Source: a virus
IMG/VR virus record: IMGVR_UViG_3300025133_000045
Location: 35,826-99,825 of that record
Length of the DNA stretch: 64,000 bases
Strand: one strand, 5' to 3'
Both the position numbers and the translations under genes were made by a program. This document shows positions 41,777-51,778 of this stretch, in pieces (positions within the stretch are counted from its first letter, which is position 1; each line of letters begins with the position of its first letter). The notes below the pieces were generated by a model. That model ran no database searches. It was not told the origin of the DNA and saw nothing but the letters and a program-made list of their open reading frames with translations.

Positions 41777-42454
41777 TTACACTATCTCCTTAATTTTGGT
41801 GTATAAAACTGGACTTATCTTCCTTAAATAGTCTCTGTCACCCAAGAAATAGGCTTCAAACCCTGAAGAAAAATACTCCCTTATAGAGGTGGGCGCATAG
41901 GCGTTTGAAAACAGCCCCATACAAAGCGACTCTAACGTAGGATACCCAATTACTTGGAAAAGATATTCGTCGAACTCTAATTCATATTCCACGTCTTTGA
42001 AATCATAGCCCTGTGTCGGGTAACCTTCCGCTTTTAGAAGTTGTCTTAGCTTTTCTCTTTTTTGCCTAAATTCATTCACCACTTTATTGTCTGAATATAT
42101 CTCATACCCATATATCTCTTCCACTGAGTGGCCTATTTCATGTACAATGTCGTCAACCATATCATCGGGAGTGGATTGCTGATTGGTAATGTAAATCGCT
42201 CCGTCCTTAAAAAGTGCATTAACTTGGCGCTTACGAAGCTCATCAAAGTCGCCCACAAAAACAGTATCAACCTCTCGACGCAAATGAAACGGAATATATT
42301 CTTCCACTGACACCAAAACTTGTTCCAGGTCGATGCCATCGGGCAACGGATCTTTCACAAAAGCATAACCGTTGCCAAAAGAGTATTCCTTTTGGGCTTT
42401 CTTGTTGCGCTCCACAGACTCAAATATGTAATCTATTACGTTATTGTTAGCCAT
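41777..42454 (-). CDS. Zinc metallopeptidase-like protein (HExxH), anthrax-lethal-factor-like
   Basis: This encodes 225 aa. The zinc motif DIVHEIGHSVEEIYG lies near residues 108-122, and a downstream acidic region culminates in YFSSGFEAYFLGDRDYLRKI, where the FxxxFExY pattern supplies the third ligand Glu as in lethal-factor-type (M34/ATLF) peptidases. No signal peptide is present, so it would act inside the cell. It may process phage proteins or cut a host target. The third ligand assignment is inference. Confidence 0.6.
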   Translation of the reverse strand: MANNNVIDYIFESVERNKKAQKEYSFGNGYAFVKDPLPDGIDLEQVLVSVEEYIPFHLRREVDTVFVGDFDELRKRQVNALFKDGAIYITNQQSTPDDMVDDIVHEIGHSVEEIYGYEIYSDNKVVNEFRQKREKLRQLLKAEGYPTQGYDFKDVEYELEFDEYLFQVIGYPTLESLCMGLFSNAYAPTSIREYFSSGFEAYFLGDRDYLRKISPVLYTKIKEIV

Positions 42455-42864: not shown

Positions 42865-44187
42865 TTAAAGTATATTTGCTACAATTGTTGCAACTTTTGA
42901 TCTCTCGCCCTTTGTTAAGGTTATATGTCCTGAAATTTCGAATGGTTTTAGTTTTTCAACCGCATGAACAAGGCCACTAGAGGTTTCATCGACATATACA
43001 TTATCGATCTGCTCAATATCGCCAGTCAAAACTATTTTTGTTCCCTCGCCAACCCTCGTCAAGATCGTCTTAACTTCATGAGAAGTTAGGTTTTGTGCCT
43101 CATCAATAATCATAAAAGCGTTGGCGATTGAACGACCCCTAATATAGGTCAGGGCTTCAACCTCAATTATGCCTTTTTCCATGTACTGTTCGAGCATAAC
43201 CTTATCGTTGCCCATAAGAAATTGAAGGTTGTCCTGTACTGGCATAAGCCAAGGATGCATTTTTTCTTCCATGGAGCCAGGCAAATATCCGATGTCTCTT
43301 CCCATTGGCACAATTGGCCGGGAAATAACGAGTTTCTGATACAGAGGCTCTTTTGACTTCTTTGATTCCATGACCTGCTTCAAGCCAGCGGCTATCGCAC
43401 ACAGTGTTTTGCCAGACCCAGCTTTGCCAACAAGCGATATCACAGACACTGTGGGATCCAACAAAAGATCGAAACTAAAGGCTTGTTCTTTATTCCTGGG
43501 CTTGACCCCCCAAACACCATCTTTTCTCATGTTGACTTTCGTCAAGGGGCTGTCTTTGTTAGCATATTTGGCCAACGCTGTCTTTTTTTCATTCGCACTG
43601 GAAACAAGCAACAAATACTGATTTGGATGAAGGCCGTTGATATTGTCGAGAAACACCTCTTTTCCATCATAAATCTGATCGATAAATTGATCGTCAACCA
43701 ATACGCTCGTAAACCCTGAATAAAGTTCCGATTGGCTCTTGATCACTTTTGCTTTTGTATATTCCTCTGTCAAGACTCCGATGGAGTCGCAAATAACGCG
43801 CATATTAATGTCACGAGACACTAAAATAACTTTCCTGTTTTCGTTTGCTTCCATTTCGGCCAAAGCTGCACTGATGATTAAGTTATCAGGAGCTTCGGGA
43901 TCCAAGTGGGTGCATAATTTACTTGAGTCGTGTCCAACCACACGAAGTATTCCTTTGCCCTTGGCAAGTCTAACGCCAAGCTGAAGGCTTTTCTTTTCTC
44001 TCAGAGTGTCTAAGGATCTGATTATTTTTCTTGCGTTGGTTCCGACACTATCTTGACGCTTCTTATGCTTGTCGATTTCTTCTAATACTTTTAACGGGAG
44101 AACAATGTCGTTGTTGTCGAATTGATAAATACTACCGGCATCTGTTAAACATACACTGGTATCTAACACATAGATTTTTTTTGCCAT
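42865..44187 (-). CDS. phoH: PhoH-like protein: PIN domain plus PhoH ATPase
   Basis: This encodes 440 aa. Residues ~1-140 are a PIN nuclease domain (YVLDTSVCLTD, LIISAALAEME, LVSRDINMRV supply the acidic residues). Residues ~235-440 are the PhoH P-loop ATPase: GKAGSGKT as Walker A and AFMIIDEAQNL as Walker B. PIN-PhoH2 proteins are thought to act as ATP-driven RNA-unwinding nucleases. PhoH is common in marine phages. It begins 43 nt after the terminator of the structured RNA, with AGAGGAAATGA before the ATG. Confidence 0.87.
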   Translation of the reverse strand: MAKKIYVLDTSVCLTDAGSIYQFDNNDIVLPLKVLEEIDKHKKRQDSVGTNARKIIRSLDTLREKKSLQLGVRLAKGKGILRVVGHDSSKLCTHLDPEAPDNLIISAALAEMEANENRKVILVSRDINMRVICDSIGVLTEEYTKAKVIKSQSELYSGFTSVLVDDQFIDQIYDGKEVFLDNINGLHPNQYLLLVSSANEKKTALAKYANKDSPLTKVNMRKDGVWGVKPRNKEQAFSFDLLLDPTVSVISLVGKAGSGKTLCAIAAGLKQVMESKKSKEPLYQKLVISRPIVPMGRDIGYLPGSMEEKMHPWLMPVQDNLQFLMGNDKVMLEQYMEKGIIEVEALTYIRGRSIANAFMIIDEAQNLTSHEVKTILTRVGEGTKIVLTGDIEQIDNVYVDETSSGLVHAVEKLKPFEISGHITLTKGERSKVATIVANIL

Positions 44188-44230
44188 TCATTTCCTCTGG
44201 AGCGTGGTCAATTATTATTAAGTAGTCCCC

Positions 44231-44259
44231 AAACAACAAAAACCGCCGATGAAGGCGGT
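44231..44259 (-). terminator. Intrinsic terminator of the structured RNA
   Basis: On the minus strand, ACCGCC (44259-44254), a six-base loop, then GGCGGT (44247-44242), followed by TTTTGTTGTTT. A perfect 6-bp GC-rich stem with a U-tract is a standard factor-independent terminator. It separates the ncRNA from the PhoH gene that starts at 44187. Confidence 0.85.
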
Positions 44260-44888
44260 AAATGGGGAGGGCTTTAGCACATCTAGTCCCTCTGTCTATG
44301 TCCATCCTTTCGAATGTATGCACACCGGGGTTTCACGCCGTTCATAGACTTCCTCCCTGTTCTTGCTATCTCTAGCACGGAACAGCACGTTGTTCTATCG
44401 GCAGGCGTTCTGCGCTTAATTCAAGAGTTAGCAATTCTCTTTTCAATCACGCCTTGCACTTTGATGATCTGGCATCACCTCCATACAAGCCCTTTCGGGA
44501 CGGCTACAGTCTTGCGACCATAACCAGAGAGGCTTCCACCCCCGATAGTCCGATTCTGTGGTACTACCCACTTGCCAGACAACAGTTATGTCTGTTTGGT
44601 CATTTTCGCCGTTGTCGCGATGAATCAACAAGTCCGCAACTGTTTTTGGCAGCACTCCAGTGGTGGTCACTGGCTCTTGCCTTAAATCACTGGGCAGTAT
44701 TCAGAGCAACCACACTCCTTAATCTGCCCCCCTCCAAGGTTGGGCGACCTCACTTGCTTGAACAAGTGTATCCCAAACCGGGTTTTCTCTACCCTCCGTA
44801 TGGAGGCAATCAGAGCGGCGAAACTCATGAAAGTTTATTGACCCGAGAACGGGGTCATCTAGCGATGTAAAAGAACTCTCTCTTTCTG
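44231..44888 (-). ncRNA. Large structured non-coding RNA (~655 nt), class unknown (GOLLD/ROOL-like candidate)
   Basis: No plausible gene exists between 44188 and 45030. On the minus strand a promoter at 44895-44923 and an intrinsic terminator at 44231-44259 bracket ~655 nt. The sequence folds into many local helices. One hairpin is CACTTG/CAAGTG at 44768-44751. Another is CCAGTG/CACTGG around 44675. AACAGTT/AACTGTT (7 bp) closes a domain of about 60 nt. TGCTA-GAGA-TAGCA is a GNRA hairpin, and CCC-GAAA-GGG and CATTC-GAAA-GGATG are two more. GTCTATG/CATAGAC (7 bp) encloses the last domain before the terminator. Several GNRA loops suggest tertiary packing. Size and phage context recall GOLLD and ROOL RNAs, but I cannot match a consensus by eye. 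Confidence 0.75.
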
Positions 44889-44894
44889 ACATAC

Positions 44895-44923
44895 AATGTA
44901 GCACACTATGTGCTGGCTGTCAA
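44895..44923 (-). promoter_or_regulatory. Sigma70-type promoter for the structured RNA
   Basis: On the minus strand TTGACA (44923-44918), a 17-nt spacer, then TACATT (44900-44895). The spacer contains an AGCACA/TGTGCT inverted repeat, which could bind a regulator. Predicted start is about 44888. It begins only a few bases after the U-tract of the preceding terminator, so the RNA is an independent unit. Confidence 0.72.
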
Positions 44924-44930
44924 GAAAATA

Positions 44931-44996
44931 ATTAAAAAAATGAGGCACCTGTTTAAAAACTCACAATGCTATTAGTTTGTTTTAACCCCGTGCCTC
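44931..44996 (-). terminator. Intrinsic terminator after the cytidylyltransferase-like gene
   Basis: On the minus strand GAGGCAC (44996-44990) pairs with GTGCCTC (44948-44942). An inner TTAAAAC/GTTTTTAA pairing gives an extended hairpin, followed by ATTTTTTTAATT. The outer 7-bp stem is perfect. It ends the transcript coming from 45031 and insulates the ncRNA unit. Confidence 0.75.
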
Positions 44997-45030
44997 CCTG
45001 CGGGTTGGGGGGGGATGGTTGGCAGATTGC

Positions 45031-45492
45031 TTATCCAATCTTCCTATTCAAAAATGTTTCAAATGTATTGCACTTATACCCTGCGTCTGAAACCATATTG
45101 GAGCTACTGCGGACTTTACCGCCTCCAACGTTCCATAGCATTTTAATCTTAAGTTCGTCGCACAATTTCTTTTCTGGAGTGTTATAAGCTACTCTATCTC
45201 CTCCATTTGCAAATATATCACACTTTCCTGAAGTGTGCAACCTTTTTATTGCTTCGCAGACAGTATTATCTGTATCATCGACGGACACGATTTCAGACAC
45301 CACTCCAATGCTGCTAATAATTTCACAGCGATCTTCCCAGGCCATAAAAGTATAGCCCTTTTTGCGATTTAGCCACTCATCGCTGTTTATAACCACAATC
45401 ACCTCGCCTTCCTCAGACGCTTCTAGAATCATTCTTACATGTCCAACATGTAGGGGGTCGAAACCCCCAGAAACAACAACATATTTACTCAT
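45031..45492 (-). CDS. Cytidylyltransferase-like protein (RfaE C-domain / TagD type)
   Basis: This encodes 153 aa. The nucleotidyl-transfer signature is VVSGGFDPLHVGHVRMIL (HxGH as HVGH). A later VGGGKVRSSSNMV stands for the ISSTxxR-type motif. Family members attach CMP or AMP to small phosphate compounds such as glycerol-3-phosphate or heptose-1-phosphate, precursors for cell-surface polymers. It overlaps the small membrane protein gene by 8 nt. It could serve the glycan cassette although it lies 4 kb away. Confidence 0.78.
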   Translation of the reverse strand: MSKYVVVSGGFDPLHVGHVRMILEASEEGEVIVVINSDEWLNRKKGYTFMAWEDRCEIISSIGVVSEIVSVDDTDNTVCEAIKRLHTSGKCDIFANGGDRVAYNTPEKKLCDELKIKMLWNVGGGKVRSSSNMVSDAGYKCNTFETFLNRKIG

Positions 45493-46681: not shown

Positions 46682-46704
46682 ATTAACTCTCTAATAGTAT
46701 ATAG

Positions 46705-47074
46705 TGGAGGTGGGCGGGATCGAACCGCCGTCCAAAATAAATTCAATTTCAAGTCATTCACAGGTTTATCTGGTTTACTGTCACAAACCAGAAAAGGTAG
46801 TCGGGCTTCCAACCAGCGCTTTCCGACCGAATGCGCTCCACCTGCTACAAGCAGGGTAACCATTTTGATTTTTTATTTTCGCAGGAATCTACCTGTTATC
46901 CCAAATTGGGTGTCAAGGTCTTGGGAAACCCCGTCACTAAGCCGCTAGGCGAACAGAGTTGAAATAATCGTTGTTGTTAGCAATTATTGGTTTTGAACTA
47001 CATTTTAAGTCTTTAGTTCGGACGACTACCTGCACTATTCATCTTATTTACTCTGTCGAATCCAAGTCACCCCC
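46705..47074 (-). ncRNA. ssrA: tmRNA (phage-encoded transfer-messenger RNA)
   Basis: The 5' end GGGGGTG (47074 downwards) pairs over 7 bp with CACCTCC at the 3' end, leaving discriminator A at 46705; CCA is not encoded. GACTTGGATTCGAC follows the 5' strand as in bacterial tmRNA. The T-arm GGCGG-TTCGATC-CCGCC lies near the 3' end. A reading frame from GCT at 46981 to TAG at 46937 encodes the tag ANNNDYFNSVRLAA, ending in the protease-recognised LAA. Several pseudoknot-capable stems follow. tmRNA rescues stalled ribosomes and tags proteins for ClpXP. Confidence 0.93.
46937..46981 (-). other. tmRNA tag-peptide reading frame
   Basis: Inside the tmRNA, 14 sense codons starting with the resume codon GCT and ending with TAG spell ANNNDYFNSVRLAA. 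Compared with the E. coli tag ANDENYALAA it is four residues longer, keeps A-N at the start and L-A-A at the end, and has an Asn-rich front and an Arg before LAA. Confidence 0.9.
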
Positions 47075-47550: not shown

Positions 47551-48302
47551 TAAAGCTCCGCTTCTGCATCTTCAAGTTGTTCCTGATCTTGTTCTTGATC
47601 TTGGGGGAGCGGCTGAGTATCAGCAACGGGCAGTTCAGGAGACATTTCATCTAAAAACTTATCCAGGTACTTGTCGACATTTTCTTCTCCATATTTGTCA
47701 AAAACATCCCTGTCACTGGGGTCTCCCAAAAGTTCATATTTATCAAGAATATTCTGCTGAATCTTCTTCATAACATTAAAAGCAACATTCCGACCAGTCT
47801 TATCTAAATCGGCATCTTCTAAGCCCTTGGTAAAATCATCCATGGGATCAACTTCTTTATCCTCGATATCAATAATATTCTCATCATCACCAAAGTCGCC
47901 CTTCCTACCGACATCTATATCGACATCCTCAGCTATTGCAACCATGCCAGCAGATGCATTCATATTTGCAAGATCTATAAGATTTCGCCACGCATTCAAA
48001 ACGTGAGCCCTGAATGACGTTTTTTGGTCAAAGTTCGTGGTAAGAGACTTAAAGCTAGTCTCAAGCTGAGGGATAATCTCCTTTAGGAGATCCTCCAGAA
48101 CATTAATTCCAGTGGAACGATTTGGGATTTCATCAGGAACGGGAGCCCTTTCTGCGAGAATTCCACGGATAACCTTGCGAATCATCTGCTCGGCCATCAA
48201 CTCTTTCTTTTTTTCTTTTGCTTGTCTTTCTTTGACAATTCTGATGATCTTACGGACATTTTCACGTAATAACATCTCTTCAACCAAATCATTCCTTTTC
48301 AT
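47550..48302 (-). CDS. Helical protein with amphipathic N-terminus, possible head/core component
   Basis: This encodes 250 aa. The first ~55 residues are charged amphipathic helices (VRKIIRIVKERQAKEKKKEL, then MIRKVIRGILAERAP). A weakly folded centre follows, then acidic segments and a Gln/Asp/Glu-rich tail (QDQEQDQEQ). ILAE before Arg fits the L-x-E cleavage rule of T4-type prohead proteases. Such composition occurs in prohead core/scaffold proteins, but no named family is recognised. Confidence 0.5.
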   Translation of the reverse strand: MKRNDLVEEMLLRENVRKIIRIVKERQAKEKKKELMAEQMIRKVIRGILAERAPVPDEIPNRSTGINVLEDLLKEIIPQLETSFKSLTTNFDQKTSFRAHVLNAWRNLIDLANMNASAGMVAIAEDVDIDVGRKGDFGDDENIIDIEDKEVDPMDDFTKGLEDADLDKTGRNVAFNVMKKIQQNILDKYELLGDPSDRDVFDKYGEENVDKYLDKFLDEMSPELPVADTQPLPQDQEQDQEQLEDAEAEL

Positions 48303-51300
48303 CGTGTAGAACTCCTCGTTTCATTCAATAAATAGTCCATAACTTCGTTAATCAACTTCTCTTCTTGAACAAGTGAGCCTTTCATATTTAATTTTGAACG
48401 TTTCTTTTCTTCCTCGTTCTCTTCTCCGACATCATCGCCTTCCCAGGGTCCACCTTGTGCCGCTGGGGCTCCTTCCACATTGCCTCCAGCCATGCTGGAA
48501 TTTTCTTCGATGTCAGCAGGCTCGTCTTGCGCTTCTCGGATCTTATCGTAAACTGCTTTATATTTGTGTTTTAAATTGACAGGAAGCCCTTGAGGTGCTA
48601 TATTGTTATACCATTCATCGAAACCTAATGATAAAGCTGATTCCCTAGCCTGTGTCCCACTCATTAAACGAGGTGTTTCAATCATCTTTACCAAAACATC
48701 ACCATTTTCATCCTTATCAATGGGCAAATAATCGTGATCCTCTAAATATTTGCTAGGGCTGAAGGTTCGCAATGCCTTCATATATTTCCCAAACCTATCG
48801 GCTCCAGCGAGCCAACCTACAACTTTATGACCCTTATCGTGAAGATCTTCCATAATATCCACGATAAAGCCGCTCTTTGAAAACTTATCAGCCACTATAA
48901 CTTCAGGATCTCCTTCGTAGATTGAAGAAAGAAGCTCATATTGCTCTTTCTCGCTCAGAGGGTTTGTTGCTTTGTCTTCGCTTGTAGCTGCCCCCTTAAC
49001 AAGCATAATATACACTGCATCAGCCCCTGCATCGGCAAGCGCTTTCTTTCCCTTCTCAACCATTGCATGATGGCCAAGGTGCCAAGGCTGGGCTCGGCCA
49101 CTCCAAATTATCACCCTCTTCCTAAAGTCATCTTTTGGATCCCGACCAACTCCAGCTTCAAAATTAATGATTCGATCAACCCTGAAGCCCAAAACAGCGT
49201 TCAAAAGGTTAATGTAGTAGGCTTTGCCACTTAGATTGGAATTTGTAGCTTTATTCAAGGCTACAATCTTTTTTTCAAGTCGTACAAAGAATTCTTCCGT
49301 CTTCCTCACAGAATCTGCATCGAGATTGGGTGCCGTCTTTTTAAACTTTGCTTTATCGTTTTGAAGCTGGCTTTCAAAGGTTTTTATTGTTTCTTTGGCT
49401 TTTTCCTTGATCCCGCTAATATCTGGTTCGCTCTCGACCAAATAAGGCACCAAAGAGGCTAAAAACTCCATTTTTCGATTAGAACCACTCTGTTTGGGAC
49501 TAAATGTATCTGCGGCTGTTCGTATTGCCCGGTTTAAGGCCGCTGGTTGTGATGTCTTGAGCCCGAGGATTTCTTTGATAAAGTGATTTTCGAGAGCCTT
49601 CTCAAGATTGAGAATATTCACCCTGTCTTCCCAGAAAATGTCTTTTCTCTTATCAAAGAGTTCAGAGGTGCCCTTGACCTCGTAGATATCCCCATTTGGC
49701 TTTTTGATCTTGAGTACGACCCCTTCTATGTAAGAATCTTCGCCCCCAAGCCTAGAAGATGCCTTATTGGCAAATCCGTTTAATGCTCCTTGCAATTCTT
49801 TGCTTACTTTGTCGAGTTCTTTGACAAGTTCCTTTTTTGCTGGAGACCCTTTGCGGGTGGACAAGAGTGTGATCCCCTTTTCGAAATTTGACTTGTCCTT
49901 GAGATAATGTGCCAAAACTTTGCCGATATTAATATGAAATACGCCCTCCATTTTCATATCTTCATCGTTGGTATAAATTCTCCATTCCGCAGCCCATCCA
50001 GCTTGCATAGATTCGTATTTCAGTAGGCTTGTTAGCTCGTTATTCTGATCAGGGGTCACTTTATACCAGTTTAGGCGGTCAGAATTCCAAAGCTGACAGT
50101 TAAAGAGTACAAAAGCACCTGCTTTTCCAAACTTTTCCCTCGAATAAGGGGTGCCAACAAAAATAATATTATCGTTACCTTTTGACCCCTCATGTGTTAA
50201 AACAGGGAACAATTCAGCGTCATAACGGAAAGGGCCGACTCTATCAAAGAGGTTTTTCAATGATTCTTGAAAATTCTTATCATTTTGAAGATATTTGAAC
50301 GATTCCAGAAGATCTACATTGAATCCGAATCTTTTTTCAACGTTTTTAGTATAAACCGGCCCACTATTGCTCGATTCCATGAAAAACTGTTCCCTTTTGT
50401 CCAAACCGAAGTGACAAAACGACGAATCCATCTTTTCAACGAGGTCAATCGACGAGTTATTTCCAAAGTCAATGTCAAAACCGGTTTTCCCTTCGTTGTT
50501 GGACTCATCGACCAGTGTACGAAGAACGTCAAGAGCGGTTTTGCGAGTGAACTTGCTTTTCCCAGCAAATCTGCCGATTCCTGTTCTAGCTTCATTCACC
50601 ATCTCTGGATTTTTGGGCGGTTCCCAAGTCTTTTTCATCAGCTTACCCAGAATTGTCATTCCCAAGTTGTATTCTTCTTTGCCGATGCTCCTTTTAAGGT
50701 TCATCTCCGCACTGTCAATAAACTTCTCCCAAATTATATCGATATCAGAAGTTCTTTTATTCCTTCCTATGAAGTTGGCCAGCTTTGACGCATGATAAAT
50801 GGTTGAACCCGATGCTTCGGGGTGATCCAAGATTGTACGTGCCAAAGCGTCCAAATTTTCAAATCCAATGCGAGATTCAGACTCAACGTCAATGCTTTTC
50901 CGTGACATCTTGGTAGGGTCGCCTCTTTTTGGCTTTCGAAGATCCAATACGAGTTTTAAACCCCTCTCGCCAAGCGAAAACCTAGCACCGACAGGATCCC
51001 AGCCTAATTTTCTCTGCTTTTGAAGCATCTTTGCAAATTCAGTGTCAGGGTTGTTCTCGGCAGAGTCCAAAACAGCCTCAAAGGCGTCTCCTTGCTTCAA
51101 TTCCATAGCTGCTGCAACAGCGCGTAGCAAAATAATGGAGAATGCACCTTTCACCTGAGACGCAAGATCAACAAAGCTGCTTTTTTGAAGAAACTCTTTT
51201 GTTGCCCTCGCATTGGCAACGTCTACAAGATCTATTTGAAAAACACGATTGCCAACACGCACTGCAATGTGAATTTCGTTCTTTCCGCGCCTCGTGGCAT

Positions 51301-51778
51301 ACACCGAGGGGTCAATTTCCTCGATGGCCGCTGCGACCTCTTTAGATGGGGCAGCAAAGACAACATCAATATCCAAATCACCATAACTTGTCTTTTTTTG
51401 CGATGCCATATTAATCACATCATCTGTTTCAAACTGGTCCGTTGCAACAACATCGGACCCATAATGTTTTAGGGCTGCCAACCTAGTAGAGCCTACTTGA
51501 TATCGAGGAGGAACTGATGTATCGAGAAGCTTCTTTTGTCCGAGGAGATATAAAAGTTTTCCGATATACGTTTGATCATCGGCATCTGGAAAAACCCCAT
51601 ATTCCTTGGGCAAGACCATGCTCAAATCTTCATCCGAGATCGTTGAATACGTCATATCCCGTTCAGCATTGTCAGGATGAGAACTTAATTTAGTTTTTAT
51701 GAGAGTGTCTGCTGCATTCCCTCCTTCAGAAAGGAGTTCCCTCACCAGACTGAAAAGAGTCTGCTGCAAGCCGGTCAT
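48299..51778 (-). CDS. 1159-aa multi-nucleotidyltransferase: pol-beta-like, RNA-ligase-like and HIGH-type adenylyltransferase domains
   Basis: Three catalytic modules are visible. Residues ~95-200 resemble a pol-beta-type nucleotidyltransferase (YGDLDIDVVFAAP near 131, FQIDLVDVA later). Residues ~445-720 resemble a covalent nucleotidyltransferase/ligase: EKMDSSFCHFGLD as motif I with Lys nucleophile, YIEGVVLK as motif IV, and a following EVKG as motif V. Residues ~885-1060 are a HIGH-type cytidylyl/NMN-adenylyltransferase (WSGRAQPWHLGHHAM, LAGADRFGKY, RLMSGTQARES). The N-terminus LFSLVRELLSEGG is an amphipathic helix with an L-x-E site. RNA repair or NAD-linked chemistry is inferred; the combination is unusual. 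Confidence 0.72.
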   Translation of the reverse strand: MTGLQQTLFSLVRELLSEGGNAADTLIKTKLSSHPDNAERDMTYSTISDEDLSMVLPKEYGVFPDADDQTYIGKLLYLLGQKKLLDTSVPPRYQVGSTRLAALKHYGSDVVATDQFETDDVINMASQKKTSYGDLDIDVVFAAPSKEVAAAIEEIDPSVYATRRGKNEIHIAVRVGNRVFQIDLVDVANARATKEFLQKSSFVDLASQVKGAFSIILLRAVAAAMELKQGDAFEAVLDSAENNPDTEFAKMLQKQRKLGWDPVGARFSLGERGLKLVLDLRKPKRGDPTKMSRKSIDVESESRIGFENLDALARTILDHPEASGSTIYHASKLANFIGRNKRTSDIDIIWEKFIDSAEMNLKRSIGKEEYNLGMTILGKLMKKTWEPPKNPEMVNEARTGIGRFAGKSKFTRKTALDVLRTLVDESNNEGKTGFDIDFGNNSSIDLVEKMDSSFCHFGLDKREQFFMESSNSGPVYTKNVEKRFGFNVDLLESFKYLQNDKNFQESLKNLFDRVGPFRYDAELFPVLTHEGSKGNDNIIFVGTPYSREKFGKAGAFVLFNCQLWNSDRLNWYKVTPDQNNELTSLLKYESMQAGWAAEWRIYTNDEDMKMEGVFHINIGKVLAHYLKDKSNFEKGITLLSTRKGSPAKKELVKELDKVSKELQGALNGFANKASSRLGGEDSYIEGVVLKIKKPNGDIYEVKGTSELFDKRKDIFWEDRVNILNLEKALENHFIKEILGLKTSQPAALNRAIRTAADTFSPKQSGSNRKMEFLASLVPYLVESEPDISGIKEKAKETIKTFESQLQNDKAKFKKTAPNLDADSVRKTEEFFVRLEKKIVALNKATNSNLSGKAYYINLLNAVLGFRVDRIINFEAGVGRDPKDDFRKRVIIWSGRAQPWHLGHHAMVEKGKKALADAGADAVYIMLVKGAATSEDKATNPLSEKEQYELLSSIYEGDPEVIVADKFSKSGFIVDIMEDLHDKGHKVVGWLAGADRFGKYMKALRTFSPSKYLEDHDYLPIDKDENGDVLVKMIETPRLMSGTQARESALSLGFDEWYNNIAPQGLPVNLKHKYKAVYDKIREAQDEPADIEENSSMAGGNVEGAPAAQGGPWEGDDVGEENEEEKKRSKLNMKGSLVQEEKLINEVMDYLLNETRSSTR

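Follow-up and report, generated by a model that had tools for sequence, protein, structure and literature searches.

The window, a 64,000-nt stretch, corresponds to bases 35826–99825 of a 99,825-bp IMG/VR virus record (IMGVR_UViG_3300025133_000045), a tailed phage with baseplate-wedge genes. A gap is flanked by a nucleotidyltransferase gene (45031–45492) and phoH (42865–44187), both on the minus strand. As originally predicted, no gene lies across 44188–45030, which holds only short or antisense open reading frames; the flanking genes stop at 45031 and start at 44187. Elsewhere on the minus strand, 48299–51778 encodes a 1159-aa protein with a cytidyltransferase domain at its C-terminus and a long N-terminal part, and 41777–42454 encodes a small protein with a HEIGH motif, which matches the ATLF peptidase family slightly below the Pfam cut-off and is likely to be a phage zinc peptidase.

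Within the gap a conserved RNA occupies 44267–44876 of the minus strand (~610–640 nt), extending from a boxA element at 44876 to the end of a 3′ hairpin at 44267. The original prediction of a free-standing structured RNA of ~655 nt at 44231–44923 holds as to the kind of feature, and the conserved part is narrower (44876–44267). The folding energy of the 660-nt RNA is −231.4 kcal/mol, compared with −202.8 ± 7.6 kcal/mol for shuffled sequences (z −3.8; reached by 0 of 20 shuffles); the comparative evidence for a conserved fold, described below, is much stronger than this z score.

Transcription signals at the locus

A predicted promoter-like site is present on the minus strand at 44895–44923, where the original prediction had placed one: TTGACA (44923–44918) and TACATT (44900–44895) are separated by 17 nt, with a TG before the −10 hexamer and 10 of 12 consensus matches. 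The closest relative (L085) has the same TTGACA-N17-TACATT hexamers and spacing with a different spacer sequence; putative promoter-like sites were also listed for the relatives. The intrinsic terminator claimed to precede phoH was likewise found (44237–44259, minus strand), as a 6-bp stem followed by TTTTTGTTGTTT. The terminator assigned to the upstream gene is present but consists of a 7-bp stem (44996–44990 with 44948–44942) around an ~41-nt loop, and its folding is only marginally better than that of shuffled sequences (z −1.5). An intrinsic terminator lies close to the 3′ end of the RNA in 17 of 25 family members, and in several relatives the conserved 3′ hairpin itself doubles as a terminator.

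Directly following the RNA, in the same orientation, is phoH, for which the RNA could in principle serve as a riboswitch or long cis-acting leader. However, the terminator closes the RNA ahead of phoH, the downstream genes vary among carriers, some being encoded on the other strand, and in the phage carrying L085 phoH is ~140 kb distant, making a leader role very improbable.

Family extent and conserved fold

A phoH-anchored search of IMG/VR identified one neighbour, whose 203-kb contig contains a related RNA (nhmmer 2e-33); patterns derived from this first pair were scanned over IMG/VR and GTDB genome contigs, followed by profile iteration. In total, 26 more distinct versions of the RNA, at 54–96% identity, came from phage contigs whose lengths reach 317 kb. 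The family, with the window’s copy counted, comprises 24 distinct full-length and three partial sequences, with a mean pairwise identity of 68% and a minimum of 54% (21 sequences); the window copy and L085 form a separate branch. Two additional pattern scans aimed at more distant relatives added nothing but chance matches to this set, and the family looks saturated at the searched radius in IMG/VR. Each of the 16 records searched over their full length has a single copy; among them are phage contigs 293, 297 and 317 kb long and two contigs assigned by binning to a MAG of Halobacteriovorax and to one of ‘Methylococcaceae’. In INPHARED phages, a BLAST search with the window RNA yielded a single 26-nt terminator match, ascribed to chance, and with the relatives as queries no BLAST-detectable copy was found in isolate phages and plasmids. 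Two IMG/VR contigs from one sample (60,846 and 235,672 bp), which carry L196 (G001:C1:1–230) and L200 (G005:C1:1–395), respectively, end inside the RNA at nearly adjoining points; these contigs are probably two halves of a single ~297-kb phage genome.

A protein-coding reading was considered and rejected, with insertions and deletions that are mostly non-triplet and each of the six frames cut to no more than 21–33 stop-free codons in some member; a conserved protein frame, which would speak against an RNA gene, was found in none of the six frames across the homologues. In contrast, compensatory changes in the stems, on which the claim of a structured RNA turns, are abundant. The structure, based on an alignment of the 24 full-length homologues (A2), comprises 152 pairs in 31 named helices (29 runs by tool count); 97.5% of the 3645 pair cells are standard, and double-sided compensatory changes occur at 103 of the 152 pairs (613 cells). 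The covariation score is 0.555, versus 0.248 ± 0.006 for shuffles (0 of 500 reach it). Pairing falls to 41–46% when partners are slid by 1–3 columns, a contrast that is overstated, since these sequences also served to derive the structure. This bias does not touch an APC-corrected G-test for covariation, which is blind to base pairing and for which the null was obtained by re-placing the substitutions of each column randomly on the tree. All 12 column pairs at E ≤ 0.5 in this test (24 sequences) lie inside one consistent structure, and the most strongly covarying columns invariably form Watson-Crick or wobble pairs. The window copy retains 142 canonical pairs of the 152, and at 45 pairs both of its nucleotides depart from the consensus of the other members. 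Across the pairs G-U outnumbers A-C by 401 to 20; the minus strand is therefore the RNA, since a plus-strand RNA would show the reverse. Six of the helices are pseudoknots or loop-loop contacts (PK1–PK5 and KL), a network which, together with the 5′ boxA and the tRNA-adjacent homologues described below, goes beyond the original prediction.

Following the RNA from its 5′ end (all coordinates are on the minus strand), the P1 hairpin (44840–44856; GACCC/GGGUC, loop GUUCUC) has compensatory forms GGCCC/GGGCC in L093, GACCG/CGGUC in L085 and GAACCC/GGGUUC in L197. The P1 loop (44849–44845) pairs with 44789–44785 to form PK1 (44785–44849), which is 95.8% paired and has double changes at two positions (UA to CG and CG to GC). 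All six pairs of the P2 hairpin (44807–44833) are doubly changed. Covarying pairs (numbered by nt) are observed in the P3 stem (a, b and c; 44730–44782), at 104:152 (E 0.17) and 121:128 (E 0.09), and in P4 (a and b; 44692–44729), at 158:189 (E 0.02) and 170:177 (E 0.04), while pair 214:224 in P5 (a, b and c; 44642–44687) covaries beyond all null values. The P4 loop GUGGU (44713–44709) and the P5 loop ACCAC (44667–44663) form the kissing loop KL (44663–44713; 96.7% paired), for which compensatory versions occur in L095 (GUGAC/GUCAC) and L129 (GUAGU/ACUAC). The P6 hairpin (44614–44640) is 100% paired, with double changes in four of its seven pairs, as is PK2 (44550–44628; double changes in four of seven), in which the P6 loop (44628–44622) pairs with 44556–44550.

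The P7 hairpin (44558–44571) contains the strongest covariation in the whole alignment (314:325). PK3 (44467–44580) connects 44580–44573 with the P12 loop (44474–44467; 96.9% paired, double changes in four of eight pairs), and the long-range helix P8 (a and b; 44394–44549) closes the central domain by pairing 44549–44537 with 44407–44394 (double changes in eight of 11 pairs). PK4 (44352–44532), between CCUC (44532–44529) and GAGG (44355–44352), is weaker, three of its pairs being invariant and one having eight double changes. In P10 (a and b; 44501–44526) seven of nine pairs are doubly changed and 367:374 covaries beyond all null values; the adjacent GNRA hairpin P11 (44490–44499) is invariant (CCCGAAAGGG), and its pairing, showing no variation, is putative. 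Double changes affect all seven pairs of P12 (44453–44489). P14 (44357–44385; CUGUUC/GAACAG) is the family’s signature core, with six invariant pairs and covariation at 508:519 (E 0.02). It is followed by P15 (44295–44348; pair 536:589, E 0.08), together with P16 (44340–44326) and P17 (44316–44303), and by PK5 (44277–44323; pair 564:604, E 0.02), which joins 44323–44318 to 44282–44277 in the loop of the 3′ terminal hairpin (44267–44292; GAGGG/CCCUC), where RUGCU is conserved. Many nucleotides outside the helices are also invariant.

The apical loop of P13 (a and b; 44412–44452) carries the palindrome UGUACA (A2 column 539) in 21 of 24 members, including L101, L103, L107, L109 and L133. This is the sole widely conserved self-complementary loop of the family and, as a hint only, may be a candidate contact between two RNA copies. 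L085 has AGCUAGCU at this position; the palindrome is not counted as evidence for a dimer site because the window copy lacks UGUACA.

The 5′ boxA and the genomic setting

The conserved sequence of the family opens with GTTCTTTNANA, i.e. the boxA of rRNA leaders. In the window copy this first conserved element is GTTCTTTTACA (44866–44876, minus strand); the core, TCTTTNANA, is perfectly conserved in 23 of the 24 homologues, and the linker between boxA and P1 varies freely in both length and sequence, with an extra hairpin in some members. Five members conform fully to the gamma-proteobacterial consensus GYTCTTTAANA (PMC5725501). The window boxA is one base off this strict consensus. Other members have the form GTTCTTTGAAA, familiar from Gram-positive rrn leaders. 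Across the whole window the pattern TCTTTNAMA occurs 24 times on both strands, versus 11.6 expected (0 of 100 shuffles reach this number), mostly on the plus strand; the excess probably reflects codon composition.

In E. coli the boxA-bound NusB/S10 complex is considered to shield long untranslated rRNA from Rho (PMC4807359; PMC5725501). By sequence, the phage RNA has the arrangement of a boxA-type antitermination target, i.e. a boxA early in an untranslated transcript. It resembles the rRNA operons, in which boxA acts with NusB/S10/NusA/NusG/SuhB, in being long, untranslated and structured and in having GUUCUUUAACA or GUUCUUUGAAA at its 5′ end; it differs in being phage-borne, single and non-ribosomal, with a putative dependence on Nus factors. 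The conservation of boxA predicts NusB/S10 antitermination of the RNA, although it is not proof of NusB/S10 binding.

A near-invariant, rRNA-type boxA at the 5′ end, apart from the folded body, might alternatively be expected of a decoy, i.e. a stable boxA-bearing RNA that titrates host NusB/S10, or another RNA-binding factor, and shuts host rRNA synthesis. Phages often redirect host transcription, which is a point in favor of such a role. However, a fold of ~600 nt, with 31 conserved helices and six tertiary contacts, is more than a decoy would require, and with one boxA per molecule its stoichiometry would be poor unless the RNA were very abundant. We regard the decoy, one of the two main rivals to a particle-forming RNA, as quite unlikely.

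With respect to genomic setting, tRNAs lie within 10 kb of the RNA in most regions, and seven of the 27 have a tRNA on the same strand that stops 8–66 nt before it. In one of these regions the tRNA is only 8 nt upstream, so that the RNA there probably arises by cleavage of a precursor shared with the tRNA. A phage tmRNA is present within 10 kb in five of the 27 regions (the window and four other carriers); that of the window, detected in an Rfam 15 scan, is a separate phage-encoded gene at 46702–47074 (minus strand), which carries the tag ANNNDYFNSVRLAA and is located 1.8 kb upstream of the large RNA. The neighbors in carriers include PhoH, Hsp70, the Gp23 capsid protein, asparagine synthase, Thy1 and FKBP, and no neighbor protein recurs across the carriers, any sharing of neighbors being confined to small local groups of related phages.

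The other main rival is a protein-dependent RNP or a ribozyme, in which the RNA would serve as scaffold or catalyst, bound to a protein of the phage or the host. The large size of the RNA and its many invariant unpaired nucleotides would suit this role, as would the GNRA loop and pseudoknots, features of known ribozymes and of the OLE RNP. Against it, no protein gene recurs next to the RNA in carriers, and 44188–45030 has no match at E ≤ 10 to models of group I/II introns, RNase P, tmRNA or other ribozymes; we consider an RNP or ribozyme unlikely.

Interpretation and comparison with known large RNAs

Searches with the 4227 families of Rfam 15, at gathering and permissive thresholds, gave only noise for the window RNA and 15 homologue loci, assigning neither the window RNA nor these loci to any family. 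ROOL (RF03087; gathering cut-off 99.1 bits) has no match at E ≤ 10 in any of 15 carrier records, while the known pMP118 ROOL, as a positive control, was found at 130.4 bits with the same tool; the profile of the present family in turn has no match to pMP118 ROOL at E < 100. The GOLLD model (RF02032; gathering cut-off 150 bits) gave three matches below 9 bits in the 15 carrier records, none of them at the RNA, and no match in a cmscan of 14 loci. A positive control for GOLLD was sought in three genomes and in 399 genomes of one phylum and was not found, which makes the GOLLD negative a little weaker. A highly diverged GOLLD or ROOL would have the length range, phage location and tRNA neighborhood that are observed here, but neither model finds the RNA in the 15 records, the pMP118 ROOL control being found at 130 bits, the family profile misses pMP118 ROOL, and the end-to-end helix of ROOL is absent; such an origin seems extremely doubtful.

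The Rfam negatives and the covariation together bear out the suggestion, made in the original prediction, that the RNA could be a new class: that it is a previously uncatalogued class of large structured phage RNA is well supported. A description of the RNA was not found in open-licence papers, subscription papers and preprints being mostly outside this coverage. Giant ornate phage RNAs are already known as a kind; the family, the fold and the boxA are new.

We propose that RNA polymerase would start slightly upstream of 44880 from a host-type promoter, and that the host NusB/S10 (Nus) complex would bind the nascent boxA. The Nus-bound polymerase would then stay Rho-resistant across ~600 untranslated nucleotides, and the complex may also assist the folding of the RNA, as in rRNA operons. 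The transcript would fold into a pseudoknotted body locked by the kissing loop and would end at the intrinsic terminator, and the mature molecule would function as RNA; its likeliest form is a stable, abundant and possibly homo-oligomeric particle in infection, similar to GOLLD and ROOL. For this reading as a whole, i.e. a free-standing RNA gene of a new class that undergoes rRNA-like antitermination and acts as an RNA particle, we estimate a probability of about two in three. The more specific proposal of a third giant phage RNA class, unrelated to GOLLD and ROOL, that employs the host rRNA antitermination machinery and forms an RNA-only particle in infection, is tentative, with a chance somewhat short of even. 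If correct, it would mean that a viral RNA body is built through captured rRNA-like biogenesis. Bacteria and their viruses have very few known RNAs of this size and strictness of folding. A further class, separate in its fold, with an alignment and a structure model available and with a tRNA/tmRNA setting, offers an independent case in which to ask what such RNAs do, and the conserved boxA makes it directly testable how a long untranslated phage RNA evades Rho.

Among known large RNAs, the ORF-less gap between gp139 and gp140 of ICP1 yields an ~800-nt noncoding transcript, the most abundant of that phage (PMC7567579). It was rejected as a homologue, with no family-profile match there, and the region (L195:98–1108; HQ641347, 80097–81107) has no Rfam match above cut-off; the ICP1 RNA is possibly another unclassified large phage RNA. 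OLE RNA is similar in being ~600 nt long and highly conserved, and is itself homo-oligomeric; it belongs, however, to Gram-positive extremophiles and has protein partners, and the present RNA has no Rfam match.

GOLLD and ROOL are of a similar size range, lie near tRNA islands and form RNA-only cages of unknown function (PMC12286853). The GOLLD/ROOL-like size and setting originally claimed are thus found for the present RNA, which is phage-borne and mostly has tRNAs within 10 kb, a general setting that is not diagnostic. The resemblance to ROOL extends to the ~550–660-nt length, the phage or prophage location near tRNAs, the multiple pseudoknots and the lack of a known protein partner. In contrast to ROOL, in which a long helix joins the 5′ and 3′ ends, the present RNA has no spanning helix, its P1 being local, and no boxA is seen at the 5′ end of pMP118 ROOL. 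GOLLD is likewise a giant phage RNA near, or containing, tRNAs, and its expression goes up in lysis (PMC12286853; PMC7567579); GOLLD conserves chiefly its 3′ region, whereas the present RNA conserves both its 5′ and 3′ halves. Phage production in L. brevis does not need GOLLD, according to work as cited in PMC7567579, and the likeness to GOLLD therefore predicts a mild phenotype.
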